DNA of 64,000 nt from Yponomeuta sedellus (lineage: Eukaryota > Arthropoda > Insecta > Lepidoptera > Yponomeutidae), in the NCBI GenBank assembly GCA_934045075.1, contig OW203727.1, positions 20,226,811 through 20,290,810 on the forward strand. The letters are read 5' to 3'. Below are positions 26,201 through 55,870 of this stretch, piece by piece. The notes under the pieces are model-generated. The model searched no databases and was not told the origin of the DNA. It worked only from the letters and a program-made list of their open reading frames with translations. Every line of letters starts with the position of its first letter. Within the stretch, counting starts at the first letter, position 1. The position numbers and the translations under genes were made by a program.

Positions 26201-26703
26201 AATTTAAAAACCTATTTAGAGGCTAAAAATTTCACCCATGCCGGGATTCGAACCCGCAACCTCTGGCTATCCGTGCCGTTGCGGGTTCGAATCCCGGCAT
26301 GGGTGAAATTTTTAGCCTCTAAATAGGTTTTTAAATTTGTCCTTAGCACGGGTTAGTGCATTAAAAATAAAAATAGTATAATCATGTGGGTACAGTGATA
26401 TCGTTCCGATGTAAAACCTAACTGCAAAGTAGGTAGTCGGGGCTGTAAGTGATACAATTTGCTTAAACCAGATGTCGCTGCCTGTACGTAATACAGAGAA
26501 TAGTGTAAAGAGGTTCGAAATTTCACTGATGCCGGTGAGTCGCCCTGCCATCGGTGAGTGGCTCAATTGGTAGAGCGCTGGCACGGATAGCCAGAGGTTG
26601 CGGGTTTGAATCCCGGCATGGGTGAAACTTTTAGCCTCTAAATAGGTTTTTAAATTTGTCCTTAGCACGGGTTAGTGCATTAAAAATAAAAATAGTATAA
26701 TCG
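26201..26703 (+). mobile_element. Family J retroposon, PLE-like unit 1
   Basis: Target duplication TGTTGTACA (26192-26200 and 26704-26712). Order inside: an inverted 3' part (26201-26277); a direct 3' half of the tRNA-like block with tail (26278 to ~26390); an internal segment (to ~26550); then a full tRNA-like block with the same tail. The tail carries CCTCTAAATAGGTTTTTAAA, then CACGGGTTAGTGCATTAAAA. The same order is found at 44825-45341. Confidence 0.9.
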
Positions 26704-26712
26704 TGTTGTACA

Positions 26713-27084
26713 GCCTCTGCCTATTTTAAGTGTGTGCATACCTATACTTTAGTCACTGTCTCTGTCATTTGATTGTATTTGTGTTTTTGCTATATCGACT
26801 GTGATCTGGCAATACCTCCTATCTAATTTTTATGGACAAACAAAACACTAAACTTTTTGTCTTCATTGCGTCATAAAGCCGAGCTTTACCGAACGTTATT
26901 GTTAGATATTCACACGTGAATTGACTTCATTTAACTTCTCGTATTTTATTTGCCTATGGAATATAAAACATGTTTTTGTCATCACTGTAAAGTTGACAAA
27001 TTAGAGGTAGGATGTATTGCCAGATAACAGTCGATATGTACAATAAATAAATTATTAAAAAAAAAAATCCAACGTAAAAAAATT
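26713..27084. other. Unassigned interval
   Basis: No ORF, repeat or promoter-like structure recognised. Confidence 0.35.
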
Positions 27085-27190
27085 ACGTTAATTTACTCCA
27101 TCAATCCGAACTTGGCCCCCGTGGTGGAGTATGGCTCATACTTTCCTCAGGGAAGAAGCCCCTCGGTGGGGACATAATGGGTCGATGAAG
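27085..27190 (+). repeat. 3' tail fragment shared by family D
   Basis: CAATCCGAACTTGGCCCCC, GTGGTGGAGTATGG, CTCGGTGGGGACATAATGGG and a GATGAAGATGATG tail. The 5S-like head is missing. Confidence 0.65.
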
Positions 27191-28417
27191 ATGATGAAAG
27201 AATTTACGTTCTGCTTGTTGAATGTCAAAGTACAATGTAATATGAAAGTTAAGGCCGTCAGTATCCGTAGTAATTTCGATCATCAAGTACAAGTAGCCCT
27301 TTTTAACTTTGAAGGCAACTAGCGTTTATACACATTGGACAACGTGTCAACTTTTACATTTCCTTAACAAAATCGCTTTTTACGTACTTAGTAGTCAAAG
27401 AGGAAAAAATGGAGTGTATAACGGTACTTCTTAGCTGGCTGGCCCAGAGGTCAAGTTTCAATTATTTAAGGAAATCGTTAAGTTTTGTTTCGATTTTTTC
27501 GAAACTTTATTATTATTTCTGCATAGATAAATTTTCTTTTGTGCTTTTGTTGTTGAAACTTGGAGAATTTTCACGAATGTTGACTAGATTGTCTTGATGG
27601 TCTATGAATTTAGCTGGCCCAAGGACACGTCAGTAAGTTCTTTCTGTCCCTGACCGTCCTTATCAGCAAATTAGGCAAACTTAATATATTTAGTGTAACG
27701 TTTATAATATGTAATTCCACAATAATTTAATGTACCTATGCAAGTAAAAATATAAATACAATGTAAATTACACACCTATGTAGGTACTTAATCTCACTTC
27801 GTCTTTTGTTTGTAAGTAAGCACAAAGTTATTGTTTTGTTTTGTTGATTCTCGTGACTGTCACCCTGGGTCTTGACAGAATACCAGCGTTACGGGAAAAC
27901 TCGCAACACATGCTGAGTCAGGTACCCATTTAGTGCCAAGACACACAGTTTCGCTTTCGTATAAACTTTTAGTTATAAGTGTCTAATGTATTTCTTTGAT
28001 TGGTTATTCTGTGTTACAATTATTCTGTGTTTTGTGTGTAATAAATAAACCATTTCTATTCGATTCTATTCTAGATAGGCCAGTTGCTTATAAAGAGAGA
28101 GAGAGTGGGCTGTATAATTTTTAATTAAAATATTAGAAATAAAACGCTAAATGATAAACTGCACCTCTGCTCCTTACGGATCAATCAGAAAAAGTAAAAC
28201 AAAAAACGGCCGTTGCTACTCTCATACGATGGCCGTGAAGAGCCAAAGTGTGCATACTGTGTCGTAGATATCCAGTCCCTACCATACATGATCCAATGAA
28301 CCGGGATTTAGTCTCTAAAATGCATAGGTAATCTTTAATAGAGTCATATTAGTACAATAATGGTTTGGTCCATCGATTGGTCGACTCCGCATGTATTGTC
28401 TTATTTATTTTGTGGCT
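27191..28417. other. Unassigned ~1.2-kb interval
   Basis: Short open frames here have no recognisable domains. A GAGAGAGAGAG run lies near 28090. Confidence 0.35.
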
Positions 28418-28565
28418 AGGCTACCTATGCTGTTAAAACAGTATAGGTGCTGGGCAAACCTACACCATCTGAAATAACAATATCCCAGGCACTGCAGCGT
28501 CCGTAGTCCCTTCACCCATCTAGATGAGTGAAGGTGCCACTGGACGCTGTATAAATCATCTTATT
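28418..28565 (+). mobile_element. SINE family A, 3' half
   Basis: TATAGGTGCTGGGCAAACC, AGGCACTGCAGCGTCC and GACGCTGTATAAATCATCTT match the family A 3' part. The head is absent. Confidence 0.75.
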
Positions 28566-28984
28566 ACTAGTTTCTAGGACCTGGTAGGTAAAACACAAAG
28601 TGGCACTCGTAACGTCGGTCCACGTTCGATTGTCACTTTGTGTTCTCCATTCCAAAACCTTTGTTAGTAATTCAAACTTTACTGTCCAAAATTATGTAGT
28701 TAACAAACGACCTCTCATTTTAATGAAAGAAATTATTCAAAGTCAAACAATCTCTGTCAAAATTTGTTTTCTGTTACAGATCAGTCGAACTTTCATTTAG
28801 CGTTTAGTAAATTAGAACTTTGCAAAGTACTTACGAGATTAAATCGTAGCTTTGATGTCTAAGAGACCAATCAATCTTGCAGTTCAACAGGCTAAGTGAT
28901 CTATCACTCTTGATTGTTTCGTCGGTCTAGCGATGAACTCGCTTGACTACTAAAGCAGCGGACATAGGTTCCAGTGCGAACATT

Positions 28985-29292
28985 TTGCCTTGATATTCAA
29001 CATCGACAACAACCCTTGTATGTCCCAACTGCTGGGGCACAAGTCTCTTCCTGCATCGCAGGAAGGTTAGGCCATACTCCACCACTTGGGTTAACATGGC
29101 TTAACGACTGCCATTACATGACAGCCGGCACCAACGGCTTGACATGCCTTGCGAAGCACGGGAGCACTCGGAAAATTGCCGCTAGTGGTAGTTCCGGGAT
29201 GGTCACCCATCTTGCACCTGACCGCGCCTGTTGTTGATTAACTCAAGTGATTGATTGCAATCACTCGGTTAGACTAGGCCACGAGCGCTTCA
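28985..29292 (-). mobile_element. SINE family D (5S-derived), minus copy
   Basis: Complement reading: a head with TTGAGTTAATCAACAACAGG, GCGCGGTCAGGTGCAAGATG and GGTGACCATCCCGGAAC, then GGCACGTT-type middle, then the 3' block in altered form. It faces the plus-strand copy at 29368-29738 head to head. Confidence 0.8.
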
Positions 29293-29367
29293 AAACGTTT
29301 CAACATACATATTCAACATACAGATAAATTCTTTGCCTTGATTTTTTTTTTTCATTTGTGGTTGTTA

Positions 29368-29738
29368 ATCACTGAAGCGTTGGTGACCTAATGGAACCGA
29401 GTGATTGGAACCAATCTCTTGAGCTAAGCAACATAAGGCGCGGTCAGGTGCTGCTTTGGTGACCATCCCGTGAATACCGCTAGTGGCATATTTATCCGAG
29501 CGCTTCCGTGCTTTGCAAGGCACGTTAAGCCGCTGGTGTCGGGTGTAATGTAATCGCACTCGTTAAGCCAAGTCAGAGGCCTTTTGGATGGCTTGATAAC
29601 TTCTGACACGAAGGCCCGCCACTGTCTTACAAATCTCCACCAACCCAGTCTTGGCCCCCGTGGAGGAGTATGGCCTAACCTTCCTATGATGCAGAAAGAG
29701 ACCCATGCGTCAGCAGTGGGGACATACAAGGTTTGATA
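29368..29738 (+). mobile_element. SINE family D (5S-derived), plus copy
   Basis: A near full-length copy: head GTGATTGGAACCAATCTCTT, GAGCTAAGCAACATAAGGCG, GGTGACCATCCCGTGAATAC; middle CGTGCTTTGCAAGGCACG; 3' block CAGTCTTGGCCCCCGTGG and GGGGACATACAAGG. It lacks the (GAT)n tail and so is a slightly different subtype from 12812-13158. Confidence 0.82.
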
Positions 29739-30456
29739 TCACTGAAGGCGTCGTGATGTGTTCTGACATGACTGACTGACTGACGTTCGTCGTGATACTT
29801 GATGTGTTCAAAAAGTCTGTTTATAGTTCCATGTTCGGGATTATCTCGCATGGTTACTATATATTAGGACCATGACAAGTGATTGTGTTGTGTGGAACTT
29901 ATTATTCATGAAGAGATATAAAAGATATGAAACCGATGCGATTGCGCAGGGTACCCTGCGCTGCGCTGCGAGCACGCCATTTCATACCATTGCATTCGAC
30001 AATACGTCCCCATTTGAGTCAAAAATACTTTTATAAGCTGAAGAAGCATTGTTTAGAGGCTAAATCTTCAGTGATACCAATGGTTACAAAGTTTTTGAAC
30101 ATTTGAACTAAGGCTATCGTAAGTGCTACACAATTTATTGATTTGTGACCGGATCAACTTACGTGATATCTTACAGATACAAAGTTATTTTATAAGGAAA
30201 ATTACGAGGTTCTTATATGGGATACATAGTAATCGCTCTTTCACAGTCGATTACTTCACAACTAATTTACCCCGATTCGTCGTTGACTTGTATCTACTTT
30301 AGCTCTCGTTTCTTGCGTCTTCAAAGTAGGTAACAAACCCAGCAGTAGTTTCCTCGTCAGATCAATCATTTTGCTTATCGTGTCCAAAACGCGGATCACA
30401 AACGCGCAGTTTAATATCATGGTTGACTTACTTATCAGCTGATGCCGTACATACTT
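29739..30456. other. Unassigned interval
   Basis: A short TGACTGACTGACTGACG run at 29770 is the only visible structure. Confidence 0.35.
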
Positions 30457-30766
30457 CAGATGCTTAGTGCGAGTTTTTTAACTACTCGATCGCGTTAACG
30501 TAAACTCATATTTCTGTGGCATCGAGGAAGCGCCACCTAGCGACAAGTATGGAAATCAAAATTGCTGAGTGCGAGTTGTAATGGTTTACGTTGAGAAGTG
30601 AACACGTTTACCAGTCAAAACACGAATAAACGCGAGTGCAAGTTGTACTGCGACAGCGTTTTGCCAGTTCGAACGGTTAACTTACTCATACTCACTACTC
30701 AATGCTCGATTAACGCGGTAGTAAAGTTATTCGATTGGACCTGTCAAACTCGCACTAAGCACTCAG
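30457..30766. mobile_element. MITE family I, copy 2 (opposite orientation)
   Basis: It is the reverse complement of 24718-25029 over its whole length, with the same inverted ends (TGCTTAGTGCGAGTT ... AACTCGCACTAAGCA) and internal GTTTACGTTGAGAAGTGAAC. Short length differences and substitutions separate the two. Confidence 0.82.
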
Positions 30767-31244
30767 AAAAGTACAAACATTATTTTTACAGTGTGACAAA
30801 AATTTAAGTTTATTATTATGACATGTCGAAAATAAAACTATGTCCCCTTCTATAAGATGTTAGATACCCTGTGCTATAATATAAAGAGCTATTTACGAAA
30901 CGACCAACGTTTGAAAAATTAAATGAAGCTGCAAAGATTATTTAGGTCAGAACGTGTAAACACACTTATTGTAATCAATCAGTATGACAAGACTGTATAT
31001 AAGCGCTATTACATTACATTACAGAATAAGCCCGAAGTTTGGCTCATTTCTACGTCCATTAGGTACCTAATTAGTACAGGTGTACACAAAAGCGGACCAA
31101 CATTGTCTTGCCTCAGGATTAAGCCGATTAAGCCTTCGGCGAACCGGCTGGCTGGACCGACGATTTGAGACAGACTGCTGGCAGTGGCTAGATGCAAATG
31201 GCGATTCACCCACAATAGAAAAAAATTGAATCATCATATATATG
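30767..31244. other. Unassigned interval
   Basis: No convincing ORF or repeat identified. Confidence 0.35.
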
Positions 31245-31420
31245 ATTATATTCTTTTTATTGCAATACCCGTGCTAAGGACGATTTTAAAAACCTATTTA
31301 GAGGCAAAAAATTCCACCCATGCCGGGACGTGAACCCGCGACCTCTGGCACGGATAGCCAGAGGTCGCGGGTTCGAATCCCGGCATGGGTGGAATTTTTA
31401 GCCTCTAAATAGGTTTTTAA
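31245..31420. mobile_element. Family J foldback copy
   Basis: 62-bp arms (31288-31349 and 31357-31418) with a few mismatches and a 7-base loop ACGGATA, which is the anticodon-loop sequence of the family's tRNA-like block. Upstream is an inverted tail remnant (CCCGTGCTAAGGACG). Only the 3' half of the element is present, in both orientations. Confidence 0.88.
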
Positions 31421-31424
31421 AATA

Positions 31425-31530
31425 TATTACTTGTCAACTTGACTAAACTTCGAAAGCTCGAAGAGTTCTTAGTCAATATGAGGCACGAAATAGGTCCATG
31501 TTATGTACCATATAAACGTACCACTGCAGG
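31425..31530 (+). repeat. Dispersed segment, empty-site copy
   Basis: TATTACTTGTCAACTTGACT through CGAAATAGGTCCATG to CGTACCACTGCAGGGTA is found again at 54400-55380, where it is interrupted by a hAT element and by a LINE tail. This copy lacks both insertions. Confidence 0.88.
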
Positions 31531-31890
31531 GTACTGGCTGGCTGGCACGGTTAGCCAGAGGGCTAACCGTGCCAGCTCTCCCAACTGAGCTAATGGGCAA
31601 CCACCGGCATCAGTTGAACCTATTTACAATACTCTCTGTATTACTTACAGGCAACGACATCTGGCTGAAGTAATTTGCGTCACTTGCAGCCCCGAGTACC
31701 TATTTTGCAGTTAGGTCTTACATCGGAATGATATCGCTATTATTTTTATTGAACTAACCTGTGCTAAGGTTAGGTTAAAATAGGTTTTTAAAATTGTTGG
31801 GAGAGCGCTGGCATGGTTAGGCAGAGGTCGCGGGTTCAAGTCCCAGCATGGGTGGAATTTTTAGCCTCTAAATAGGTTTTTAAAACATTA
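31531..31890. mobile_element. Family J, rearranged copy
   Basis: Begins with a short palindrome (15-bp arms CTGGCACGGTTAGCC, 31546-31580), then a minus-strand tRNA-like 5' half and internal segment (to ~31780), then a plus-strand 3' half of the tRNA-like block ending in CCTCTAAATAGGTTTTT. It is more diverged than the other copies. Confidence 0.75.
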
Positions 31891-32284
31891 TGTACTTGCC
31901 AAAATTGCAATAGCAAAAACATACAGCATCTGCTACTGAGCTAGGCTTATTGCATAGGTATATTATCTGCTACGAGCTAGGCTTATTGCCTGTATTACAG
32001 TAAACATCGCCTCTACTAGTAAATCTCAAATCGTTGGAAGTAGCCGTCCTCCTAAGAACTTTCGTTTTTTTTCAATGACTTTGTGAGTTAACGGTACACG
32101 TTCATTGCGAGTAAGCACGTCCAATACACTACTATATCTCTGGTAAATTAATGCACACGAGCTACCTTTGAGCTCATTTTTGCAATTGCTGTTCCGAAGG
32201 CATTAGGTGAAAGTTGTGGCTAAATTATGTGAAGTTAACTGTAGTTAGTTTACAGAAACAAAACCTACTTTGGCCCTCACATCT
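31891..32284. other. Unassigned interval with a small tandem duplication
   Basis: Two ~37-bp units (31925-31995) share GAGCTAGGCTTATTGC. Nothing else recognised. Confidence 0.4.
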
Positions 32285-32530
32285 ACATAATGAAATTTAT
32301 AGAACGTCCGGTGGCACCTTTACCTACACTATACGGGTGAAGTTACCAGTCAGACGCTGCACTGTCTGGTACATTGTTTTTCTTAGTTGCTGTAGGCTTG
32401 TCCAGCACTTATACCATCACAGCATAATCCTGACGCTCCTCGGCCTAAACCACAAGAAAGAAAAAATAAATACGTGGAGCTGACCTACACGCGGGTTGCC
32501 TTACTATTTTTAAATTCACAGTTTGCGTGT
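32285..32530 (-). mobile_element. SINE family A, headless copy
   Basis: Minus-strand body and 3' part: CACACGCAAACTGTG, GTAGGTCAGCTCCACGTATT, then the ACGTTCTATAAATTTC-type end. The tRNA-like head is absent. Confidence 0.72.
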
Positions 32531-33284
32531 GGTTATGTTAGAAAACAAAACTTAAGATTGTAGTATCTTGTAGTATTTAATAATAATATTTTCCACTAGG
32601 CACAGTTACTAGTACTGATACCTCAAACTAGGATACCTAAACGATTTGTTTTGTGCTCTAGTAATCAGGCAAAAAAGATTGACGAAACAAATATATATTG
32701 CGAATGCGAGTAGAAGGGCTGGTAAGGGACGTTGTAGTAGCAAAAGGGAAGGGTTGTAGTAGCGTCGATGTAGTAGCAAAAGGGAAGATAAAAAGTACCT
32801 CGAACCGCCGTGCGTGCATGCAACGACTTATGAACGTTGATGAAGCGAACGTGATCTGTCGTGATCGTGGCAAGTGGCAGTCCATGGTCTCTGCTTCTAG
32901 GATACAGGCGTGAGGTTACGTATGTAATCAGGCAAGTACACCACAAACGTGGATTTACAGGCTGCCCGGTCTAACTTCGTTAACAGAGGTCATAGGTTCG
33001 GTTCCCATACAAAATAACCTGAGTCTTTAATGATAATAGATGGTAAAATTCACCCAGAATGAGGCTATTTGTACATACCAGGTACAGTTTAGAATTTCAC
33101 GAACAATTAGTATTGCCGTCGTTCTCAGTCTATCAGAACAAAGACCCGGAGACCCACGGCGCTCTACCTGGCTACTATGGTTCTCACAGGTCCGAGTTTG
33201 CTTAAAGATATTTAGAGATGGAGACAGGTAGAAAATATATTTAGCATTAAGTCTTCTTCTTGTACATTATCTTTTGTGTAAAAA
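32531..33284. other. Interval with a family K LINE tail
   Basis: 32790-32925 shares GCGTGCATGCAACG, GGCAAGTGGCA and GATACAGGCGTGAG with 38965-39085, consistent with a LINE 3' end. The segment GTAGTAGCAAAAGGGAAG is duplicated at 32734-32788. A box B-like AGGTTCGGTTCCC lies at 32994 without a convincing partner box A. Confidence 0.5.
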
Positions 33285-33405
33285 TAATTAATAGCGTGGG
33301 GCTTATGGGCATTACCCCCCAATGATGGCACAACCTTGCGCTATGGCGCTTATTAGGGGAGGGCTATGTCCAGCAGTGGACTAAAATAGCCTGAAGAAGA
33401 AGAAT
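33285..33405 (+). repeat. LINE 3' end, family T
   Basis: GGGCATTACCCCCCAATGAT, GGGGAGGGCTATGTCCAGC and GCCTGAAGAAGAAGAA. Short 3' end only. Confidence 0.75.
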
Positions 33406-33904
33406 TAATATCGATAATATTATTGGGAAGTGCCGTTAAAAAAATCTAGCGTTTTCGATAGCATATTGTTCAGGCACGTTAAATTTTCAAAAGTTCAAGT
33501 TGTTATTTCTTCACAATTCCTTCTAGTCACTAAATCTTCCTTTAGTCCATAACGTATCCTTATTATTACTTAATTATTGCCTTTCCTATAATTCATTTCA
33601 GAGTAACACAAATTATTAATTCAATTCTCATAATCTTCTGTACTCATCTTGCTGCCTGCGTTTACAAATAAAATAAAGTATTGTCTATTTGTCGTCACAA
33701 ATAAACTTATTACGTTCTAGAGATAACAAACCTAACGGACTGGTATAAAATCATTAAAATTATATCTACAGGATGACCGGGTTATATAGGGTTGCAATTT
33801 GAGACTGTATTAATTACAACTACTTATTCGAAGTTCACGAGGTCATCTAGTCTACTAATAACATAACATAACATTTACATTTAAGCACATACATTGCTTC
33901 CGGC
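33406..33904. other. Unassigned interval
   Basis: AT-rich, no recognised feature. Confidence 0.35.
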
Positions 33905-34075
33905 CCCACAATAGGATAGGTACCCTGTGTCGTGGGAACCAGAAACAACGACATCACAAACATGTAAACATCCAAGATCTGGACTTTTTTTTTGTTCCCA
34001 GCCGGGATTCGAATCCGGGACCTCCTGCATGGTAGGCAGACGCACCACCGCTACGCCACAGAGGTCGTCAACTAA
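33905..34075 (-). mobile_element. SINE family B, second copy
   Basis: The tRNA-Gly-like head on the minus strand (CTGTGGCGTAGCGGTGGTGC, then GGATTCGAATCCCGG) and body match 8345-8512, including CATGTTTACATG at about the same place. Confidence 0.8.
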
Positions 34076-35109
34076 TAAAATTAACTTAAATATCATAGCA
34101 AGTACAGTGCGGGAAAATAAATTTAACGATAAGCATCCTAAAGCGAGTGAACATCAACGAAATTACACGAAGCTCCGACCGCCGGAAGCACAGATTTAGC
34201 TTAAAATTTCCACCTTCCCTCGGGCTTGCTGGAAATAATGGAGTGCTCACGTAAATCCCTGCATTAGGTGTCGGCTAATATAATAAAACACGTGGCTTCC
34301 GTCATAACGGGCTAAACGTGGTCGCCGGAGTATTCTATTTACGTATCGTTTTAATGAATCTTATGATGTCGGTAAAAGTGTTTTTTTTGATATTTTGTTT
34401 ATCAAAGAGCAACAGAATGCATATTATACAGATTTTGCAGAAACATTTACAATTATTAATCTTAATTAATATGATATAACGTTCATAAGTAGATTTGTAT
34501 GTGTAAACACCTATGTAAATAATAAAAAAAATTAAAACATATTATGAAAGCTCATAACTATGGTAAAATTACTACAGCAAAACTTTTAGGCTACAGCAAA
34601 TTTTTAAGGAATTTTAAACAGAAATTATATAGTTTTAAGGATATTATATTTTTATTGTTTTTACAAAAAAACTCGAATAAATTGCAACTTATTGTATTGT
34701 TTTTGGTGAATAAGCACATAGATAAATTCTGTGCTCTACGGTGGGATGAATATTGTCTGCATTATGTAGTAAATTATAAAAAACATACATTGGAATAACG
34801 CCCTCTATTTACCTTTACCCTTTTGGGATATAGGCGTGAGTTTATGTTATCTGTTATGTTTAGAATTAAACATTTCCACATGAAAGTGCCTGCTCTGAAA
34901 AAATCGTTTTATCTGTATTTACCGTGGCATGACTATAAAAAGTGCTCATATAATGAAATAAAAACATTGACTCTTTAACTCTCGGATAGGATTGTTGAAG
35001 TCTGAATTTCGGAAAAGTTTATTCAGCTCAAAGAAAAGTTTATTCTTCTTATCCTCACAATTTCTTTTTAACTCTTTTTCTTTGTTCTCAGCTTGATCGA
35101 ACGTTCATT
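34076..35109. other. Unassigned ~1-kb interval
   Basis: An 84-codon frame (34544-34798) is AT-driven and unsupported. CTTTTGGGATATAGGCGTGAG at ~34820 resembles a LINE 3' end (family K). Confidence 0.35.
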
Positions 35110-35924: not shown

Positions 35925-36130
35925 ACTTTTATTATAATATTATAAAGGCGATGAGTGTGTATGTTTGTTACTTCTTCACGTCTAAACGGAGCGATTTTAA
36001 TAAAATTAAGTATGGAGTTAGCTGACACCTTGGATTAACAAATAGGCTACGTTTTATTGCGGCAAAATATCTTATACCGATGGGAAAATTGATAAACTGC
36101 TTGTAACACAGCAGGGCACAGCTAGTTTGT
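35925..36130 (-). repeat. Dispersed repeat F, minus copy
   Basis: Complement shares CTAGCTGTGCCCTGCTGTG, the ATGGGAA...CAAATTT-type centre and TATAATATTATAATAA end with 50208-50408. Class unresolved. Confidence 0.65.
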
Positions 36131-38560: not shown

Positions 38561-38659
38561 GTCATATAATAATTTAACTTGGCATTAATCAATGTTTAAA
38601 AAAAACCCAAATGTAAAATGAAGGAAGAAAGATTGATGAAAGAAATAATTATATCGAGC

Positions 38660-44824: not shown

Positions 44825-45341
44825 TTTTAAAAACCTATTTAGAGGCTAAAAATTTCACCCATGCCGGGATTCGAACCCGCAACCTCTGGCTATCCGTGCC
44901 AGAATAGCAACCTCTGGCACGGATAGCCAGAGGTTGCGGGTTCGAATCCCGGCATGGGTGAAATTTTTAGCCTCTAAATAGGTTTTTAAATTTGTCCTTA
45001 GCACGGGTTAGTGCATTAAAAATAAAAATATTATAATCATGTGGGTACATTGATATCGTTCCGATGTAAAACCTAACTGCAAAGTAGGTAGTCGGGGCTG
45101 TAAGTGATGCAATTTGCTTAAGCCAGATGTCGCTGCCTGTACGTAATACAGAGTATAGTGTAAAGAGGTTCGAAATTTCACTGATGCCGGTGAGTCGCCC
45201 ATTAGCTCAATTGGTAGAGCGCTGGCACGGATAGCCAGAAGTTGCGGGTTCGAATCCCGGCATGGGTGAAATTTTTAGCCTCTAAATAGGTTTTTAAATT
45301 TGTTCCTTAGCACGGGTTAGTGCATAAAAAATAAAAATAGT
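44825..45341 (+). mobile_element. Family J retroposon, PLE-like unit 2
   Basis: 13-bp target duplication ATAACATAGGCAT (44812-44824 and 45342-45354). It has an inverted 3' part including the anticodon arm (44825-44903), a short unique link, a direct half tRNA-like block with tail (to ~45036), an internal segment (to ~45196), and a complete tRNA-like block plus tail (45197-45341). The order is identical to 26201-26703. Confidence 0.92.
45197..45267 (+). pseudogene. tRNA-like cloverleaf of family J
   Basis: 71 nt that fold as a cloverleaf: acceptor GCCCATT/CATGGGT, a D arm with CTCAATTGGTAGAG, an anticodon arm CTGGC-ACGGATA-GCCAG, and a T arm GCGGG-TTCGAAT-CCCGG. Position 33 is C instead of U, and no CCA or terminator follows, so it is not a working tRNA gene. 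Boxes A and B are intact and could recruit Pol III. Confidence 0.7.
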
Positions 45342-45354
45342 ATAACATAGGCAT

Positions 45355-47119: not shown

Positions 47120-47123
47120 TTAA

Positions 47124-47316
47124 GGCTTGGGGGCGCTACCTAGCGCCACCAATGGAGTAAAAATAATAATTTATTTGATAATAACTTTTTTTCAAAAAGT
47201 AAGTAAACATCAAAAATCTTAACATCTATGATGATTGGTTTTAAAACATACAGTAGGCTGTTTTATAAGTTATGTTTTTATTCCATTGATGGCGTTAGTT
47301 TGCACGCCCAAGCGCC
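47124..47316. mobile_element. piggyBac-like MITE, 193 bp
   Basis: TTAA at both ends (47120-47123 and 47317-47320), the piggyBac target. Imperfect ~38-bp inverted ends share GGC-CTTGGG and CCA(C/T)CAATGGA(G/A)TAAAAA. No ORF. Confidence 0.65.
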
Positions 47317-47389
47317 TTAAACTATCACTGTACAACTGATGGTATTCCTCAACAAATAGAAATTAAAAGTACATAAAGTCACGCCCGTA

Positions 47390-47500
47390 TCCCACAGGGG
47401 TCAGCAAAAGAGGTCTGTCAGGATCGTGGCAAATGGCAAACCCTGCCTGTTTGCCACTTGCCACGATCCTGACAGACCTCTTTCGCTCCATTTAATACAT
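47390..47500. repeat. Family K fragment folded into a 34-bp inverted repeat
   Basis: Arms 47407-47440 and 47450-47483, one mismatch, 9-base loop. The arm text (GAGGTCTGTCAGGATCGTGG, then CAAATGGCAAA) matches family K at 32850-32890 in one orientation. Confidence 0.85.
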
Positions 47501-47579
47501 TTGGTTGGAAAATCACTTGTCACGTAACTGTGTAGAGTGCACGAGTACATAGATTAACTTGCTATCGACTGTACGATTT

Positions 47580-47775
47580 TTTTTTTAATTTATTTATACG
47601 AAAACAAACAGTCTTACAAAAACATTAACAATTGTCTTATAAAGAAATAGACCTATAGTTTTCCGAATTTACAATTTTTGAAAACAAAATATAACTATAT
47701 TTTTAAATTCCTGAAAAAGTAACCTGCAAGACTAACCAAAATAAATAAACAATAGAATTACAGTTAACAAATTAT
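47580..47775 (-). other. LINE 3' UTR with A-rich end
   Basis: Follows the stop of the LINE fragment at 47776. It ends on the minus strand in AATTAAAAAAAAA near 47580, as expected for a 3' end. Confidence 0.6.
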
Positions 47776-47950
47776 TTAGCCAACTTTCAGCCTAATAACT
47801 GATTTTTTGAATGAGTTTAGTGTGCTGCCGAAAATATCAATTTCACTCAACTTATCATTATAAAGTTTACATGTTCGTCGGATAAAACGATTCTGTCTAC
47901 AACTTGTGCTATCACAAGATAGTGAAAACAGGTCTCTCTTGCGTGACCCT
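47776..47950 (-). pseudogene. LINE reverse-transcriptase protein, C-terminal remnant
   Basis: An open frame of ~58 codons ends at 47776-47778. It reads GSRKRDLFSLSCDSTSC, then RFIRRTCKLYNDKLSEIDIF, then STLNSFKKSVIRLKVG. This C-terminal pattern (basic strand, LYNxLP-like helix, FKKxL end) is typical of Jockey/CR1/R1-type ORF2 proteins after the reverse transcriptase. The catalytic part is missing because the copy is 5'-truncated. Its 5' border coincides with a palindrome (47953-47991). No target duplication was found. It has no function now. Confidence 0.65.
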
Positions 47951-48179
47951 CTACGTAATGATGAGACATAAGATATGTCTCATCATTACGTGGGTTATAT
48001 TTAATTTAGAACTCCAAACTTGTTTTTGGATAAGTAATCGTATAACTCCAAACTCTCGTAACAGAGTAGCATAATATAAGCGATGATTGATTTAAAGGTG
48101 CTTTAGTACCCACCACGCCCACGTTGTCGCTTTTATGAAATACTCAATAATTTATTGCATTCCACACGTATATACAGAT

Positions 48180-48240
48180 GACATAACTAAAAATAAGGCT
48201 GCGTGACCCTGTAGGGCACGCAGCCTTATAAATTATAGCA
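48180..48240. repeat. Short hairpin
   Basis: ATAAGGCTGCGTG and its complement (48198-48234) around an 11-base loop. The part AAGGCTGCGTG is present once more in complement only. No terminator context is known for this genome. Confidence 0.7.
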
Positions 48241-48397
48241 GGCCTTATAAATTAAGCTTAAGACATTTCAATTCTAATTATATTGTATTATAATCAAGCA
48301 TTATTGTATAAATACTATTTCAACATCACACATGCTACGTAATAATTCAGATATAATTATTTTATATATGACAATACAATTATTAAATCATTACTAT

Positions 48398-48528
48398 TTC
48401 CATCGTAAGGTTGTCTGGAAGAAATTGCTTTTAGCAATAAGGCCGCCAATTGTACTACTATGTATATTTGCAATTGTTTTGTATTTGTTGTTTTCCAGTG
48501 TACAGTAAAGAATATTCTTATCTTATCG
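48398..48528 (-). repeat. Dispersed repeat H, minus copy
   Basis: Complement of ATAAGAATATTCTTTACTGT ... GGCGGCCTTATTGCTAAAAG ... GACAACCTTACGATGG. Class unknown; probably a LINE or SINE 3' part. Confidence 0.72.
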
Positions 48529-48662
48529 TATCCATTACCAATAAACTTCTATTATAATTAAGAATAATCTTTATTTTATTTGTTTTTGTAGATTTTTCAC
48601 TATCTCAGAGGGGTAGGCAGAGCCCGGCATAGCCAATTGCCACCATATTGTTATATCTTGTT

Positions 48663-48717
48663 TGTACTTAGACATAAAATATAAATACTTTGTATTTATA
48701 TTTTATGTCTAAGTACA
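48663..48717. repeat. Perfect 25-bp inverted repeat
   Basis: TGTACTTAGACATAAAATAT AAATA and its exact complement with a 5-base centre CTTTG. The end of the arm is repeated a third time directly after it (ACATAAAATATAAATA). Confidence 0.93.
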
Positions 48718-48719
48718 TA

Positions 48720-48965
48720 AAATATAAATATACGCTAACTGTGGAGGAAAACATCGTGAGGAAACCCGAGGCTTGGTTGGCTCCGCACGTATTAACTAGT
48801 CTTTCCTGTGGGATTGGCGAATGAGCTGTCAGGATGGTTTAGGGACTGGGCGAACCTACATCATCTATAAAACCGTGTACCAGGCACTACAGCATCCGGG
48901 CGGTCGCTTCATCCATCTAGTGTGAGTGAAGATGCCACAGGACGCTGTATAAATCATCTCATTAC
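48720..48965 (+). mobile_element. SINE family A, headless copy
   Basis: ACGCTAACTGTGGAGGAAAA, CATCGTGAGGAAACCCGAGG, GAGCTGTCAGGATGG and GACGCTGTATAAATCATCTC. Begins right at the palindrome 48663-48717, which replaces its head. Confidence 0.8.
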
Positions 48966-49319
48966 GTAAATGCAAAAGGCCAATATATACATATGTGTGT
49001 CTTATGTATATGTGTCATCTATCTATCTACCTACAAACACCAAGAGGCTTTTAAAAAGTTCGTTTATGTTAAGATACTATTCATAAATATCTAAAAGGGA
49101 AGTATCACAATCTGAAGAAGCTACAAGCTTAATAGACCTCAAAACTAAGGGGTAAAGTCAAATAAAACTGAGTAACAGATTTCATGAATTATCACAATTT
49201 TGGAAGTAAAATCTAAATAGACTATGTTATAACAATAGGAGCTTTTAAAAAGTAAACAAATATCAAATTAATTCCCGATTTTTGGCAACGTCGCAAATTA
49301 AGATAATTACTTTTTAAAA
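48966..49319. other. Unassigned interval
   Basis: No recognised feature. Confidence 0.35.
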
Positions 49320-49440
49320 AAATTAGAGGCTTTAAAACTTTACTTTTTAAAATTCCACTCATGCCGGGACTCGAACTCGCGACCTCTGGCTAACCGTGCA
49401 AGTGCTCTCCGAACTGAGCTAATGGGTGACTCTACTTTTT
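49320..49440 (-). mobile_element. Family J, single diverged copy
   Basis: Minus strand: GAGTTCGAGTCCCGGC (box B), TGGCTAACC-type anticodon arm, box A CATTAGCTCAGTTCGG. The tail motif is altered. No target duplication recognised. Confidence 0.65.
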
Positions 49441-49477
49441 ACCTAATAAATAAAAAATCAGACCATTTATTATTTTT

Positions 49478-49545
49478 TTGGCCTTTACCTTCCTCAGGGA
49501 AGAGACCCGTGCCCCTCGTAGGGGACATAATGGGTTGATGATGAA
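49478..49545 (+). repeat. 3' tail fragment shared by family D
   Basis: CTTCCTCAGGGAAGAGACCC, GTGCCCCTCGTAGGGGACAT, AATGGGTTGATGATG. Confidence 0.6.
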
Positions 49546-49664
49546 GAACATTTTTATATATAACTATGTATGAGCAATAAATTAATAAAAAAAATACGAG
49601 TCATTTCATTCTGTTGCGACTTTTTGGTCTCTACACTACAAATTTATCATTGTAATCATACTTA

Positions 49665-49765
49665 GAAAATTTCCGGGGCTTGATTACTAAGCGATTGCTT
49701 AGTAATTTATTGCTATTTTACCTCGACGTTTCGACGACGTGGTCACGTGAAGACTGATGGCTGAC
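49665..49765 (-). repeat. Possible second PLE family, terminal remnant
   Basis: Minus strand: CGTCGTCGAAACGTCGAGG, AAAATAGCAATAAATTAC, a small palindrome TTACTAAGC-AATC-GCTTAGTAA, AAGCCCCGG. The GAAACGTCG text and folded end resemble terminal repeats of Penelope elements. A related piece is at 58975-59040. Confidence 0.4.
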
Positions 49766-50207
49766 ACCCGTTCGCATCTTCGGCTGATGAGGTTTCAGAC
49801 TACTCTCAACCAGCCATCACAAAGCACTATTAGGGTTGCGACACACTACACTGACAATGTCGGATGATAAGCCATGCGACTTTCCCAAGACAATTCGCGA
49901 AGGGTTAAAATATGTTATCATTGTAATCGTCTAGTTCAAGTGGCTTTCCTAATATGTTGTACAGACTTTGAAGGCCATTCAGAGGTGGAGATTTACCCAA
50001 ATTTGTTAGAGCTTGGTTGGGCTTATGTGATTACTCGTGATTGGCGTGTTGGGATGAGTTTGAGGTGAAATCGGACAACTCTATGATACAGTGGAGGCCT
50101 TACCTAGAAGCGCCCCAGGCTTCTATTCTATTAGATCATTCATGTCCGTAATTTTAATACCTAACATTTATCACAAGTATATTTATTTTTATACAATCAC
50201 TAGCTGT
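49766..50207. other. Unassigned interval
   Basis: A 64-codon frame at 49874 is unsupported. Confidence 0.35.
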
Positions 50208-50408
50208 GCCCACGGTGCTACCAGCGGTCTATCGATTTTCCCATGGGAATAAGATATTTTCCCGCAGTAAAACGCAGCCTATATGTTAGTCCAGGGTGTC
50301 TGGTAACTCCATACCAAATTTTATCAAAATCGCTCCAGCCGTTTAGACGTGAAGAAGCAAAACACATACACACTCACAAACTTTCGTCTTTATCATATAA
50401 GTGTGATT
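50208..50408 (+). repeat. Dispersed repeat F
   Basis: CTAGCTGTGCCCACGGTG, CCCATGGGAATAAGATATTTT, CAAAATCGCTCCAGCCG and a TATCATATAAGTGTGA end. Same family as 51500-51712. Confidence 0.75.
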
Positions 50409-50853
50409 TGATGTGATGTGGTTAGAAATGTTACACTGTGTGAGTGAGAAGGAATTTCAGACGTCATAGCAGCCGAAGATAAATTTAGTTTAATTTAAGA
50501 ATTTAGTTCAGAGATTCTCTTATTCCACCTGGTTTTATCTCACTTATCTAGACAGGTACGTCAGGAGACTGAACTTTTGTTATCTAATTTCAATTTGAAT
50601 TAAATTTAGTACTAAAACTTTTCATTGTCGTAGATCGAAGTAAATCAATGTCCATTATCCCATTTCAACTTATTGAAAGTATTATTTAGTGAATTACTGT
50701 CACCAGTTGTAGCAGAGAAAAACGAAACGCCCATCTTGATGGGGGTATTCTAGATCATGTTATCATTTCTTTTGTGGAGCTACCACTTTCTTATAACCTT
50801 TCCACTCTTCATATCAACGTAGATTAACAGAAAATAAAACTTTTTTTGTATTA
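50409..50853. other. Unassigned interval
   Basis: No recognised feature. Confidence 0.35.
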
Positions 50854-51115
50854 AGAGAGAGAGAGAGAGAGACATTTATTTGCAGCCACAAAGATACAAT
50901 ACACATAACACAATATAACACGATATTAAAATAATACAGACAAATAAGAAAAGAAATAACAAAGAAAAATATTATATAACAAAGAATACGATATAAAACA
51001 AACATTTACAATTTACAAGGGCATTGTATCTCCGCAGCCACAAACAGGTAGCTGACTCAGCATTTGCTGCAGGCTGGGCCTGCGACACTGATTTTCAATC
51101 GGCACCTATTCCTCT
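50854..51115 (-). repeat. LINE 3' end, family L, with (GA)n
   Basis: Minus strand: GAAAATCAGTGTCGCAGGCC, CAGCCTGCAGCAAATGCTG, TTTGTGGCTGCGGAGATAC, AT-rich UTR. The same core occurs at 63355-63420. An AGAGAGAGAGAGAGAG run (50854-50872) closes it. Confidence 0.6.
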
Positions 51116-51499
51116 ATTTATACATACATTTTAGAATATACCTACATATCTTACATAAAAAATAATATTTATAAAATTACGTCAATACAATAGAATATGC
51201 TGTGAAATATACTTAATATAGAATATCTGAGTAACAATGCACATAATATGATAATAATATGTAGCAATAAATAAGTACAAGCAAAGAAATAACAAATAAG
51301 TACATAATGGAATTATTAAGCACGTCTTTGTAAACAATTGAGTGTAATAAAAAAAATTCAATGAATGGTCTAAAGGTAGCGTTCACGCCGCGTCAGAAAC
51401 TGTAAACCGAAGTAGCATAAAATGAATGGGTAATTGATTCATTCTTTTGTCAAACTTTATTCGCCATCTCCCATTTTTTTCGATTGCAAATCTTACTTA
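51116..51499. other. Unassigned AT-rich interval
   Basis: No recognised feature. Confidence 0.35.
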
Positions 51500-51712
51500 C
51501 TAGCTGTGGCCCGCGGTGTTACCCGCGGTTTATCGATTATCCCACGGGAATAAGTTATTTTCCCGCAGTAAAACGTAGCCTATGTGTTAATCCGGGGTGT
51601 CGGCTAACTCCATACCAAATTTTATTAAAATCGCTCCAACCGTTTAGATGTGAAGAAGTAACGAGCATACACACTCACCAACATTCGCCTTTATAATATT
51701 AGTGTGAATATA
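51500..51712 (+). repeat. Dispersed repeat F, best copy
   Basis: CTAGCTGTGGCCCGCGGTG, ATCCCACGGGAATAAGTTAT, CCAAATTTTATTAAAATCGC, ACACTCACCAACATTCGC and TTTATAATATTAGTGTGAA. No ORF or target duplication resolved. Confidence 0.75.
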
Positions 51713-52841
51713 GATATCTTTCTTATTATTTTTATTAACTTTACAACCAAAAATAAAAGTCGGGGTACTGTCAACTGTCTACAGTTGATAGTTCATTATG
51801 ACAATTCGATGTTCATTGGGTAGCTGAATCTTCCTTGTTTTACTTGTTAATCTGTAGGTTAATTGACTTTGCAATAGACATCGAAATGTTAATTGTACGA
51901 ACGTATTGAACTGTAAACCATAAGTTGTGGTTCTATGAAATAGGCCCCATTCCGACGATATTATACCGTTACGGTCTTAGTCCAATGTGAAGCATTGGTA
52001 CTTCTATATCTATTCCACTGACCAATTCTAGAGTGATGAAATCCTCCGCCGGGACCTCTGTTAAAGTGACAAGTCCCTACGTAATCACGTTACACACACG
52101 CCAGTCAACTGCGGGCCGTATACGCCAATCGAATTGGACGCTGTGCCAAATTACTTTCGTGGTAATTGTAGCGCTGGAGGCTTTCACCGTTACGCCAGAG
52201 TGAAAGCAAAAGTTAGGCAGCTGTCGATAACGCATTCGATTATAGATAGATAAGTAAATGAATTATTTATGCTCTGAGGCACACAGACAGTAGGAATAAC
52301 CTTCATAATAGGAGTTGATTAACAAAGGAATAATGAAGAAAATAATCTGTTAGAGCAGTGGTTTCTAGACTTTTAAGACTGTTGGGTACTCACAAACCTC
52401 TTTCGGTACTCCACGTCAAAATATTAAATTCAAGATCAACCTAAAAGTACGAAAAGTATACTGCCACAGTCTCATTAATCCAAAATTTTTTTTTAATGAT
52501 CGAGGTACTACTTTAACATTGAAAATAATCCAACGACTCAATGGCATATGTGATTCGCGGAATCCTGTCAATCAGTGGCTTTTTCTATATTCGGATATTT
52601 TTTTAGTATTTAATTAAAAGAATAAGAACGAATTAACATTTCATTCACTTACAAAGGAGAAAAACATTATTATTATCTAGTACGAAGAGCCATTTCTGAA
52701 GAGTTCTATGAATGTTCTGTTCCCAAGTGGTCTATAAAATCTGTATGCAAGCATGTTACATCTAACAATGTCTCGAGCGAAATTTCCAATACGTAATTCA
52801 CATGTTATCGTAGTTACTGCGATTGACCGAATTTGCTGCGA
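51713..52841. other. Unassigned ~1.1-kb interval
   Basis: No supported gene. GTTAGAGCAGTGGTTTCTAG near 52350 resembles a terminal motif of common MITEs, but no partner end was found. Confidence 0.35.
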
Positions 52842-52853
52842 TAAAATTTAGTT

Positions 52854-53245
52854 TAAAAACCTATTTAGAGGCTAAAAATTTCACCCATGCCGGGATTCGA
52901 ACCCGCAACCTCTGGCTATCCGTACCAGCGCTCTACCAATTGAGCCAATGGGCGACTCACGGCATCAGTGAAATTTCGAACCTCTTTACAATATTCTCTG
53001 TATTACGTACAGGCAGCGACATCTGACTTAAGCAAATTGCATTACTTACAGCCCCGACTACCTACTTTGCAGTTAGGTCGGAACGATATCACTGTACCCA
53101 CATTATTACACTATTTTTATTTTTAATGCACTAACCCGTGCTAAGGAACAAATTTAAAAACCTATTTAGAGGCTAAAAAAAGCTAAAATAAAAGCTAAGG
53201 CTTTGTTCCTTAGCACGGGTTAGTGCATTAAAAATAAAAATAGTG
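52854..53245 (-). mobile_element. Family J retroposon, PLE-like unit 3
   Basis: 12-bp target duplication TAAAATTTAGTT (52842-52853 and 53246-53257). On the minus strand: an inverted tail copy (53203-53245), the direct tail (53107-53185), the internal segment, the tRNA-like block (boxes A and B intact), and the end CTCTAAATAGGTTTTTAAAC. The inverted tail pair is exact over ~43 bp. Confidence 0.9.
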
Positions 53246-53384
53246 TAAAATTTAGTTGTTTAAAATTGAGTCCAGTAGGAAAACCTTGTTTCCGAAACTC
53301 GGACAATCCGTCGTTGCCGACGACGAAGAACGGGCTGCCTCTGTCCAAGTTAAGGGGCGTACACAGCAGAAAAATAATTAAATA

Positions 53385-53520
53385 TCCTAAGTTAAGGATA
53401 TTCTTTATTGTACACTGGAAAAAACAACAAATACAAAATAATTACAAAGGTTTGTAGTACAATTGGCGGTTTTATTGCTTAAAGCAATTTCTTCCAGACA
53501 TCCTTACGATGGAACGTTGC
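53385..53520 (+). repeat. Dispersed repeat H
   Basis: GGATATTCTTTATTGTACAC, TACAATTGGCGGTTTTATTG and AGCAATTTCTTCCAGACATC. Matches 35110-35365 without the insertion. Confidence 0.72.
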
Positions 53521-53754
53521 TGAAGGGCATTAGAAAGACGGATAGCCAGTGCGAATATGAATATTGACACTTACCTATACTTTAAATTTAACGTAACGAA
53601 TTTGTGCAAAGAATTTGTTTATTTTGTTTTATTTATTAAGGTACACGACAGTGTATTGCCCGATTATGTGAGTCTTATTCTATTAGGTACATGAATCAAT
53701 CTAGGGAATCAACTGAAACGAAAATTACATGGCTCGTTGTTTTGGATAGTATAT
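53521..53754. other. Unassigned interval
   Basis: No recognised feature. Confidence 0.35.
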
Positions 53755-53880
53755 TTTTTTTATGTAGCCTCGATTATGTCCCACTGCTGGGCAAAGGCCT
53801 CCTCTTTCGCTTTCCACTCCTCCCTGTTCGTGGCCACCTCCTGCCAACCTGGTAAAAAGGTCCTGAGGTCGTCCCGGCTT
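53755..53880 (-). repeat. LINE 3' end (GCCCAGCAGTGGGAC type)
   Basis: Minus strand: AAGCCGGGACGACCTCAGG, GAGGAGGCCTTTGCCCAGC and AGTGGGACATAAT. It reads like the extreme 3' end of an RTE-type LINE. Only one copy in the window. Confidence 0.55.
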
Positions 53881-53965
53881 AAAAAGGATTGACAAAATCA
53901 GTAATACAATACAGATTTTATCAATCCTCAACCAAAATTGTCGATGTTGGAGCTGCAACCGCTAG

Positions 53966-54090
53966 GCTAGTGGAATTGGCATGCCACGCAAGCGGTATGG
54001 GACCAGGCAGGTGGGCAAAAATCGTTAATGACTGAGTTCCACACAATGGATATCGCAAACGTGGCCGGCCCAAGCTTTCATTCAGGTTAC
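53966..54090 (+). pseudogene. RTE-like LINE protein, C-terminal remnant
   Basis: One frame reads ARLVELACHASGMGPGRWAK, then a TGA stop, then VPHNGYRKRGRPKLSFR. The pattern (a small zinc-less AGH/ACH motif, RW-K, a short linker, and GRPxxRW-like end) matches the C-terminus of RTE/BovB-type ORF2 proteins. A stop at 54023-54025 and lack of upstream RT sequence mark it as dead. It is cut off ~90 bp before the family J unit at 54176. The assignment rests on a short stretch and should be treated as probable only. Confidence 0.5.
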
Positions 54091-54175
54091 TTTTGATTTG
54101 ATGACATTTTTGTAGGACTCACGCTGCAGTCTTGCCTAACAAATACCCCATAGATAAATTTAACAAAAATCTCAG

Positions 54176-54347
54176 AAAAGATGTCGCTGCCTGTACGTAA
54201 TACAGAGAATAGTGTAAAGAGGTTTGAAGTTTTACTGCCGGTGAGTCGCCCATTAGCTCAGTTGGAAAGAGCGCTGGCACGGATAGCCAGAGGTCGCGGG
54301 TTCGAGTCCCGGCATGGGTGGAATTTTTAGCCTCTAAATAGGTTTTT
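54176..54347 (+). mobile_element. Family J retroposon, 5'-truncated
   Basis: 11-bp target duplication AAAAATCTCAG (54165-54175 and 54348-54358). The insert starts in the internal segment (GATGTCGCTGCCTGTACG), includes the complete tRNA-like block (~54249-54320), and ends at CCTCTAAATAGGTTTTT. No inverted part. Confidence 0.9.
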
Positions 54348-54469
54348 AAAAATCTCAGTCAGAATGAGAATGCGATGGACATGTAAGAGAAATAAATATA
54401 TTACTTGTCAACTTGACTAAACTTCGAAAGCTCGAAGAGTTCTTAGTCAATACGAGACACGAAATAGGT

Positions 54470-55072
54470 TAAAGATGGGCGTTTTCGAAAAACATTTTCG
54501 AAATTTTCGAAAATGGTTGTTATTCAAATGTTTCGAAAATATTCTTTGTTATTCGAAAAGAATAACTAATTTAGTGCTGTTTCATTTGCATGAAAGCAAT
54601 ATTATGAAGACAGCATTGAACGAACAAAACGCGCGCGACTCGTGTAAAGTCGTGTCATTCCGCCACGAATCGTGTTTTCCAAAATCGCGAGACTAAAGCG
54701 TTTTCGAAAATTGGGCCGATATGAATTTCGAAATGACTAACGTCTTTCCGTCAGCAGTCGTGTTTTCGAATATTATCACTAAAGCATGCGAACTGTAAGA
54801 GGCAGAGCACTTATTTCTGAAACTGCGTTTGACTCGGGGCATCTCGACTGTCACTCAACTACATCTCAACATGCGATATATTCGAAAATGGCTCGCTTTC
54901 ATTCTTGCATGCATGCGTCGCATTCGCGCAATCGCGGCTTAGTAAGTTAGTAATATTAGTAAAACTTATTCGAAAATGAATGTTACTAATTTACTAATCT
55001 TGTTTTCGAAAATCAAAGTTAGTAAATTCAAATTATTCGAAAAGAGATGTCATTCACAATCGCCCATCTTTG
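54470..55072. mobile_element. Non-autonomous hAT element rich in TTCGAA
   Basis: 603 bp, ends (T/C)AAAGATGGGCG ... CGCCCATCTTTG, 8-bp target duplication AAATAGGT (54462-54469 and 55073-55080). About twelve TTCGAA words, mostly as TTCGAAAA, are spread through it, probably transposase binding sites. The empty site is visible at ~31500. No transposase frame. Confidence 0.92.
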
Positions 55073-55110
55073 AAATAGGTCTATGTTATGTACCATATAA
55101 ACATACCACT

Positions 55111-55356
55111 TTGCTGTGTGGTGTCGGCCTAGAGACTAGCGCCAACCCAAATTCTTCCGTGTCGTAAAAGGCGACTAAGGGACACAAACCGGGGGGTGGG
55201 CAGCAGCGCCCCCTGCAGTACAATTCCAACAATCCGCATGCCCAGCGTGGGGATTATGGGCAGTACCCCCCAATGATGGCACAACCTTGTGCTATGGCAC
55301 TCATCAGGGGAGGGCTATGTCCAGCAGTGGACTAATATAGCCTGAAGAAGAAGAAG
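55111..55356 (+). mobile_element. LINE tail, family T, with target duplication
   Basis: Between AAACATACCACT (55099-55110) and AAACGTACCACT (55357-55368), one mismatch. 246 bp: TGTGTGGTGTCGGCCTAGAG, AAAAGGCGACTAAGGGACAC, AGGGGAGGGCTATGTCCAGC and (GAA)n. The empty site is at ~31515. Confidence 0.88.
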
Positions 55357-55389
55357 AAACGTACCACTGCAGGGTATATGCTTCTTCCC

Positions 55390-55870
55390 AGAATGAGATA
55401 GTATGGGCTTGGTCACCACACGTGCCCACGATTTGCAATTTCAAGCGCTGTGGCAGTTGAATACCTTAGACACTCAACGTTCCTCACGATTTTTTCCTTC
55501 ACAGTTAGCGAGCGGTATTGTTACTTCACAAATATATATAAGTGAGTAAACAAAATTGTATTCTTGTTAATGCACTAACCCGTGCTAAGGACAATTTTAA
55601 AAACATTTTTTTTCGATTTTATTTATGTAATACAGAGAATATTTTAAAGAGGTTCGAAATTTCACTGATGCCGGTGAGTCGCCCATTAGCTTTGTTGAAA
55701 AGAGCGCTGGCACGGATAGCCAGAGGTCGCGGGTTCGAATCCCGGCATGGGTGGAAATTTAGCCTCTAAATAGGTTTTTAAGTAAACAAAGTAAGAGCCG
55801 GGATTTGAACCCACGACTTCTCGACTTCACGAGAAGCCAGTGTTCTACCGCTCCGCTACCACCGCTCTAA
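55390..55870 (-). mobile_element. SINE family C, interrupted by family J
   Basis: Minus strand: tRNA-like head at 55796-55870 (box A GTGGTAGCGGAGCGGTAGAA, box B TGGGTTCAAATCCCGG) with an anticodon arm made of an 8-bp hairpin. The body (TGTGAAGGAAAAAATCGTG, GTGGGCACGTGTGG) lies at 55400-55535. The two parts are separated by the family J insert at 55555-55780. Confidence 0.8.
55555..55780 (+). mobile_element. Family J retroposon, PLE-like unit 4
   Basis: 10-bp target duplication AGTAAACAAA (55545-55554 and 55781-55790) in SINE C. It consists of an inverted tail (TGCACTAACCCGTGCTAAGG, 55570-55595), then a partial internal segment (from ~55625), then a tRNA-like block with a damaged D arm (GCCCATTAGCTTTGTTG), then CCTCTAAATAGGTTTTTA. 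Confidence 0.9.

Follow-up and report, generated by a model that had tools for sequence, protein, structure and literature searches.

A family of short elements, here called J, in the lepidopteran Yponomeuta sedellus is probably (rough probability 0.78) a non-autonomous retroelement that depends for its mobilisation on a Penelope-like element (PLE) of this genome acting in trans and carries a tRNA-like block within its pseudo-long terminal repeat (pseudo-LTR, pLTR). The stretch analyzed, referred to as the window and the basis of all coordinates below, is 64,000 nt long (assembly GCA_934045075.1, contig OW203727.1, positions 20,226,811-20,290,810). An earlier note on this DNA had proposed J as a tRNA-derived, non-autonomous PLE partner, and this proposal is supported by a PLE of the same anatomy within the window, and by the pattern of tailed and bare ends in J; a J tail extension that resembles, in register, the start of a PLE protein is suggestive.

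Reduction of the copies yields a J unit of 308 nt, with numbering that starts at CATGTGGG, directly after the end designated B. The unit consists, in order, of an internal segment (1-159, about 160 nt), the tRNA-like block (about 160-233), end A (AGGTTTTTAA, about unit 261-266), an extension, and end B (TATAAT at unit 308, 42-47 nt beyond end A). Two of these parts are located as follows in the copy J2.

45195-45270, plus strand: tRNA-like block of J2 (ARAGORN: Ser, gga).
45288-45341, plus strand: end A and extension to end B of J2 (together the "tail"), with the hairpin GCAC-GGGTTA-GTGC.

The tRNA-like block of J2 includes TAGCTCAATTGG and GGTTCGAATCC, which, read by eye against the box consensus, we take to be A-box-like and B-box-like, respectively. 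Given these boxes and the tRNA-like fold (7 of the 10 copies reach the gathering score of Rfam for tRNA), we infer transcription of J by RNA polymerase III (Pol III). No poly(A) was found in J. Unit positions 127-160 are an old inverted copy of the J 3' part (0 of 2000 mononucleotide shuffles), fixed as a fossil just upstream of the tRNA-like block (e.g., at 45164-45197), and the founder of J was therefore probably already such an inverted product.

When 14 long PLE proteins were compared to the doubled J unit by tblastn, all 153 matches up to E 5 were chance-like, the best of them (E 0.007) covering 15 residues on the reverse strand of the tRNA-like block; the internal segment likewise gave only chance-like matches to PLE coding sequence. 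Because PLE protein matches in J are only of this kind, the element encodes neither a reverse transcriptase nor a GIY-YIG endonuclease and is at most a non-autonomous dependant. The strong sub-threshold Rfam matches in J1 were to microRNA-precursor models only, which fits its foldback arms.

The ten insertions identified are listed below. Segment maps are in unit positions, with a minus sign for inverted and a plus sign for direct segments, and x>y gives the order in which a segment runs; ends are named left to right, and target site duplications (TSDs) are given where found.

J1, 26201-26703, plus strand: -266>187, +204>308, 1>308; ends A and B; TSD TGTTGTACA (9 bp).
J6, 31242-31421, plus strand: -308>197, then +185>261 through the anticodon-stem palindrome; ends B and A; 6-bp TSD candidates only.
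J7, 31541-31884, plus strand: complex copy with several switches, ending at A; no TSD found.
J2, 44825-45341, plus strand: -261>185, short filler, +185>308, 1>307; ends A and B; TSD ATAACATAGGCAT (13 bp).
J10, 49317-49432, minus strand: simple old copy, from the A side to unit 155; TSD TACTTTTTA.
J3, 52854-53245, minus strand: -261>1, 308>235, filler, +262>307; ends A and B; TSD TAAAATTTAGTT (12 bp).
J4, 54176-54347, plus strand: simple 5'-truncated copy, +88>261, with no inverted part; end A only; TSD AAAAATCTCAG (11 bp).
J5, 55555-55780, plus strand: -308>247, filler, +103>260; ends B and A (the BLAST match stops at unit 296, and the last bases to B were read by eye); TSD AGTAAACAAA (10 bp).
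J8, 60693-61010, minus strand: -267>60, +199>308; ends A and B; TSD uncertain (7-bp candidate TATATAA).
J9, 61911-62169, minus strand: -261>107, +91>193; left end A, right end neither A nor B; no TSD found.

Inverted parts are present in 8 of the 10 insertions, and the total is twice the count first listed. The five copies of the earlier note (J1-J5) all lie where it had placed them, with exact duplications of 9-13 bp, and four of them have the inverted 3' part that it described, the exception being 54176-54347; it had overlooked the other five, four of which also contain inverted parts. Exact TSDs of 9-13 bp flank J1-J5 and J10, while random pairs of 34-nt windows share an exact match of at least 9 nt in 0.5% of cases and of at least 10 nt in 0.2%. 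The AT-rich candidates of J6 and J8 (6-7 bp) are a weak point, being as common as expected by chance. J1, J2, and J3 have the pseudo-LTR form, i.e., repeat-internal-repeat plus an inverted arm, and the perfect inverted arms measure 63 bp in J1 and 78 bp in J2.

The two alternative 3' ends that the earlier note had recognized are real, and their placement, which it missed along with the PLE inside the same window, follows a pattern: two 3' ends are readable in six of the ten copies (J1, J2, J3, J5, J6, and J8), and all six have one A and one B. Available sections of two papers describe a PLE "tail" found on one of two inverted terminal repeats and linked to two adjacent start sites of reverse transcription (PMC3846280, PMC11167929). 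According to the second, the PLE cuts and extends both strands, and reverse transcription begins at two adjacent internal sites whose interval corresponds to a tail of 30-40 bp (PMC11167929, in part). The A/B alternation of J matches this published PLE tail.

The window itself contains an insertion with this organization, together with two further PLE fragments.

561-1550, plus strand: PLE insertion; left arm formed by the inverted 3' end plus a 39-nt tail, right end without tail; TSD AATGTCTCTCAA (12 bp) at 549-560 and 1551-1562.
561-599, minus strand: PLE tail, 39 nt, on the outer side of the left inverted arm, encoding MSTARVNLRKYY outward.
647-1195, plus strand: PLE open reading frame (ORF) fragment with GIY-YIG endonuclease domain, its first translated residues inside the inverted arm.
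21763-22003, plus strand: second PLE 3'-end fragment, 92% identical to the first, with no clear TSD.
14604-14851, plus strand: third PLE fragment (81%), ORF end and 3' untranslated region.

The PLE at 561-1550 shares the anatomy of J, with a tail on one side only, and its inverted arms of 83 nt are 99% complementary. Its GIY-YIG domain was recognized by Pfam PF01541 (E 0.00036) at 21.2 bits, just under the curated cut-off of 22.6. Named relatives of the ORF are nearly all moth or butterfly proteins, the exceptions being two entries labelled E. coli and one from a hoverfly; P0008 and P0053 are PLE-like and recorded as partial Escherichia coli proteins, presumably through contamination. The peptide MSTARVNLRKYY encoded by the tail resembles the first residues of P0029 (MSKIRVNIRKQY), a full-length PLE ORF of the butterfly Euphydryas editha, and more loosely the start of P0048 (MYNGRENLRHHY); other long PLE proteins start differently, and a search for N-terminal PLE relatives added one protein. 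Exact patterns revealed no relatives of J or of the PLE in viral contigs and prokaryote genome contigs, where 0 of 12 pattern matches to the PLE protein were confirmed.

How the two outward-facing ends of a J insertion are joined may be reflected in its strand switches. Nine were counted, two of them from J7 (whose same-strand jumps were left out), with J4 and J10 omitted as they have none. The breakpoint falls at units 181-206, in the anticodon arm, in 5 of the 9 junctions (binomial P about 0.008, with the interval chosen post hoc), and a palindrome, CTGGCACGGATAGCCAG, occupies units 185-201 of the same arm. Foldback loops measure 17 nt in J1, 9 in J2, 7 in J6, and 17 in J9. Palindromes at pLTR 5' ends and at inverted junctions are also described in the accessible part of PMC3846280, which proposes self-priming. 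Pure self-copying cannot explain J, because the second arm continues past A to B; two complementary DNAs (cDNAs) joined through the palindrome may explain its junctions.

The template must have been longer than one unit, because tracts in J1, J2, and J3 exceed 308 nt (alignments of 424, 432, and 336 columns). All three tracts stop inside the first repeat (units 204, 185, and 235), so that a linear pLTR-internal-pLTR RNA suffices to account for them; a circular RNA template, one of the alternatives named in the earlier note, was considered and is not needed.

Similarity between the J tail and the PLE was assessed by tests that were all post hoc. From unit 263, the extension reads LSLARVSALK, in register with MSTARVNLRK of the PLE. 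Outside J and the PLE, 5 of 117,600 positions score at least as high as this 10-residue match, as do 7 of 4,275 GC-matched windows; for 7 residues, the corresponding count is 9 of 4,275. Codons for the shared S, A, and R differ between the two at third bases only, as if the J tail had come from a related PLE and then lost coding. At the nucleotide level, the A-to-B region compared to the PLE end plus tail gave a score reached in 0.6-0.9% of shuffles and in 6 to 37 of 3,188 GC-matched windows under five of six scoring schemes, and for end B and the two PLE ends the score was reached in 0.65% and 0.05% of windows, or, with GC matching, in 4% and 0.6%. The earlier note had looked to a PLE with a shared tail: the PLE is there, and the likeness of the tails is at best distant. 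The resemblance of the J tail to the PLE ORF start is suggestive, not proof of the exact partner.

These observations can be combined in a model whose enzyme, transcript, and joining step are inferred. The full J form would be a pLTR (tRNA-like block, end A, and tail), the 160-nt internal segment, and a second pLTR. A linear RNA of this form, whose transcription would probably start at the tRNA-like Pol III promoter or else come from read-through, would be bound by PLE protein, and the PLE enzyme would cut both target strands with a stagger of 9-13 bp. Both target 3' ends would then prime cDNA on J RNA at either of the neighbouring start sites, A or B, leaving an outward-facing J 3' end on each side, one bare (A) and one tailed (B). 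The two same-sense cDNAs would finally be joined, often where the palindrome of the anticodon stem, CTGGC...GCCAG, lets them fold back or anneal. We lean, by a small margin over even odds, to a more specific version: J would be a SINE-like family (SINE, short interspersed nuclear element) partnered by a PLE, not by a LINE (long interspersed nuclear element), in which the pseudo-LTR harbours a Pol III-type tRNA promoter and terminates in a captured PLE repeat/ORF junction containing both start sites of reverse transcription, and in which the anticodon stem took over the role of the PLE cDNA fold-back palindrome.

Several points weigh against mobilisation of J by a PLE. All tallies are drawn from ten copies in one window, with no genome-wide count behind them, and no intact or full-length PLE was seen among the PLE fragments of the window. 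The A/B alternation alone is modest evidence: its probability is 1/64 if A and B are equally likely, 0.069 when six of each are taken as given, and 0.037 once the PLE insertion is included. Moreover, the part of PMC11167929 available reports no difference in start sites between the strands, so that A/A and B/B insertions would also be expected under independent choice; the paper leaves strict alternation unaccounted for, and the J extension (42-47 nt) exceeds the published length of 30-40. Runs of T5, located at units 235 and 254, are a possible Pol III stop ahead of the tail, and a J transcript that includes end B would therefore need read-through. PLEs have been described as carrying, commonly though not universally, a hammerhead motif in the pLTR; Rfam searches found neither a hammerhead nor another self-cleaving family in J or the PLE fragment.

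The likeness of the J tail to the PLE is also uneven. The match is weaker over 12 residues (35 of 117,432 positions, 45 of 4,275 windows), and over 9 residues its score is reached in 61 of 4,275 windows. Against P0029 the extension matches weakly (156 of 4,275 windows, 3.6%), and against P0048 and P0100 a match is absent. J2 and J3 have an extra base in the extension, and the reading is broken in J6. Under the sixth nucleotide scoring scheme, 21% of shuffles and 414 of 3,188 windows reached the score, a non-significant outcome. End A compared to the two PLE ends was weak or non-significant (18% and 3.5% of windows; 27% and 5.6% when GC-matched), and in a search of the window the tail at end B paired with the second PLE end over 11 nt (E 0.46), a hit that does not stand out from about ten further AT-rich ones. 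The J 3' region is thus at best distantly similar to the window PLE and not closely identical to it.

One alternative, which we consider unlikely, is that a LINE mobilises J as an ordinary tRNA SINE, with inverted parts produced by twin priming, by template switching on two RNAs, or by snap-back second-strand synthesis. The tRNA-like head with Pol III-type boxes, the 9-13 bp TSDs, and the 5' truncation are all SINE-like, and the short loops at J1, J2, J6, and J9 fit snap-back. However, snap-back on an element's own cDNA should leave the same end on both sides, yet all six informative copies pair A with B, and twin priming inverts an upstream part of the element, not its 3' end. J also lacks the poly(A) that might tie it to a LINE, and outside J its tail found only chance-level matches of 11-16 nt in the window (E ≥ 0.12), where LINE 3' ends are unmapped; two of these matches lie inside a LINE ORF at 2632-5574. 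A second tRNA-bearing repeat family, distinct from J (8346-8512 and 33900-34074, copies 88% alike), provides a control: neither of its two copies has an inverted self-match within 600 bp. The PLE in the window, by comparison, shares the anatomy of J.

Two other explanations were considered. Spread through circular or self-cleaved RNA, as in metazoan retrozymes, would fit the 308-nt unit and the tandem arrangement, both retrozyme-like (PMC7229834, part of text), but with no self-cleaving family in J by Rfam searches and the long tracts ending inside the first repeat, as linear RNA predicts, we regard it as quite improbable. A foldback DNA transposon or miniature inverted-repeat transposable element (MITE) would account for the long perfect inverted arms of J1 and J2; it is disfavoured to the point of being barely credible by the variable lengths of TSDs and arms, the variable junctions, the ends that are of two kinds or truncated, and the tandem tracts. 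A separate question, compatible with mobilisation by a PLE, is whether J arose from a degenerate or recombined PLE, internally deleted and with a captured tRNA gene or SINE head, or from a SINE that gained a PLE tail. The repeat-internal-repeat form and the ORF-start-like tail speak for a PLE derivative, as does the mention of short non-autonomous Penelope elements in Heliconius (PMC6685494, from the portion available), but the uniformly chance-like PLE protein matches in the doubled unit do not, and we hold this origin only tentatively, at less than even odds.

Other elements were also noted in the window. Nested inverted repeats (79-84%) at 29005-29740 form a long foldback that spans about 735 bp and may represent a foldback or MITE-like element. 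ORFs of a Copia-type LTR element, gag and a long pol (Retrotran_gag_2, rve, RVT_2), occupy 17508-21266. Two overlapping reading frames lie at 57955-58810, and since 58319-58810 matches the helix-turn-helix domain of Mos1 transposase, this is probably a broken mariner.

tRNA SINEs are generally regarded as LINE parasites. If our reading of J is true, a tRNA-bearing multi-copy family with PLE ends would extend SINE-type parasitism to a third class of eukaryotic retroelements, and the small size of J would allow the rules of PLEs (priming sites of reverse transcription, use of target ends, formation of inverted junctions) to be read from many insertions. In the literature searched, with Repbase and most subscription papers outside the search, no tRNA-bearing PLE dependant was found.

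Among known systems, J shares several features with GIY-YIG PLEs of the Penelope/Poseidon clade as described in the available portions of PMC3846280 and PMC11167929: direct pseudo-LTRs plus an inverted pLTR, short variable TSDs, an optional tail at one end, a palindrome at inverted junctions, and partial tandems. Unlike them, J has no ORF, measures 308 nt per unit, and carries a tRNA-like block in the pLTR. In Adineta vaga, a pLTR-flanked nonribosomal peptide synthetase (NRPS) gene was moved in trans by Pen3a, which like J places non-PLE sequence between pLTRs; that case, as far as the available text goes, is a single insertion (PMC3846280), whereas the J family has multiple copies, some older and some younger. 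The short non-autonomous Penelope elements of Heliconius are, like J, lepidopteran, short, and attributed to Penelope, and the accessible part of PMC6685494 mentions no tRNA-like block in them. The heliconiine SINEs ZenoSINE and Metulj are also small and without an ORF, and the 5' half of Metulj is described as likely tRNA-derived, but their presumed partners are LINEs (PMC6685494, same part), whereas the ends of J follow the PLE pattern. Metazoan retrozymes, according to the part of PMC7229834 available, resemble J in their small size (roughly 300 nt) and in being non-autonomous and non-LTR; they possess type I hammerheads and circular RNA, whereas no ribozyme was detected in J.

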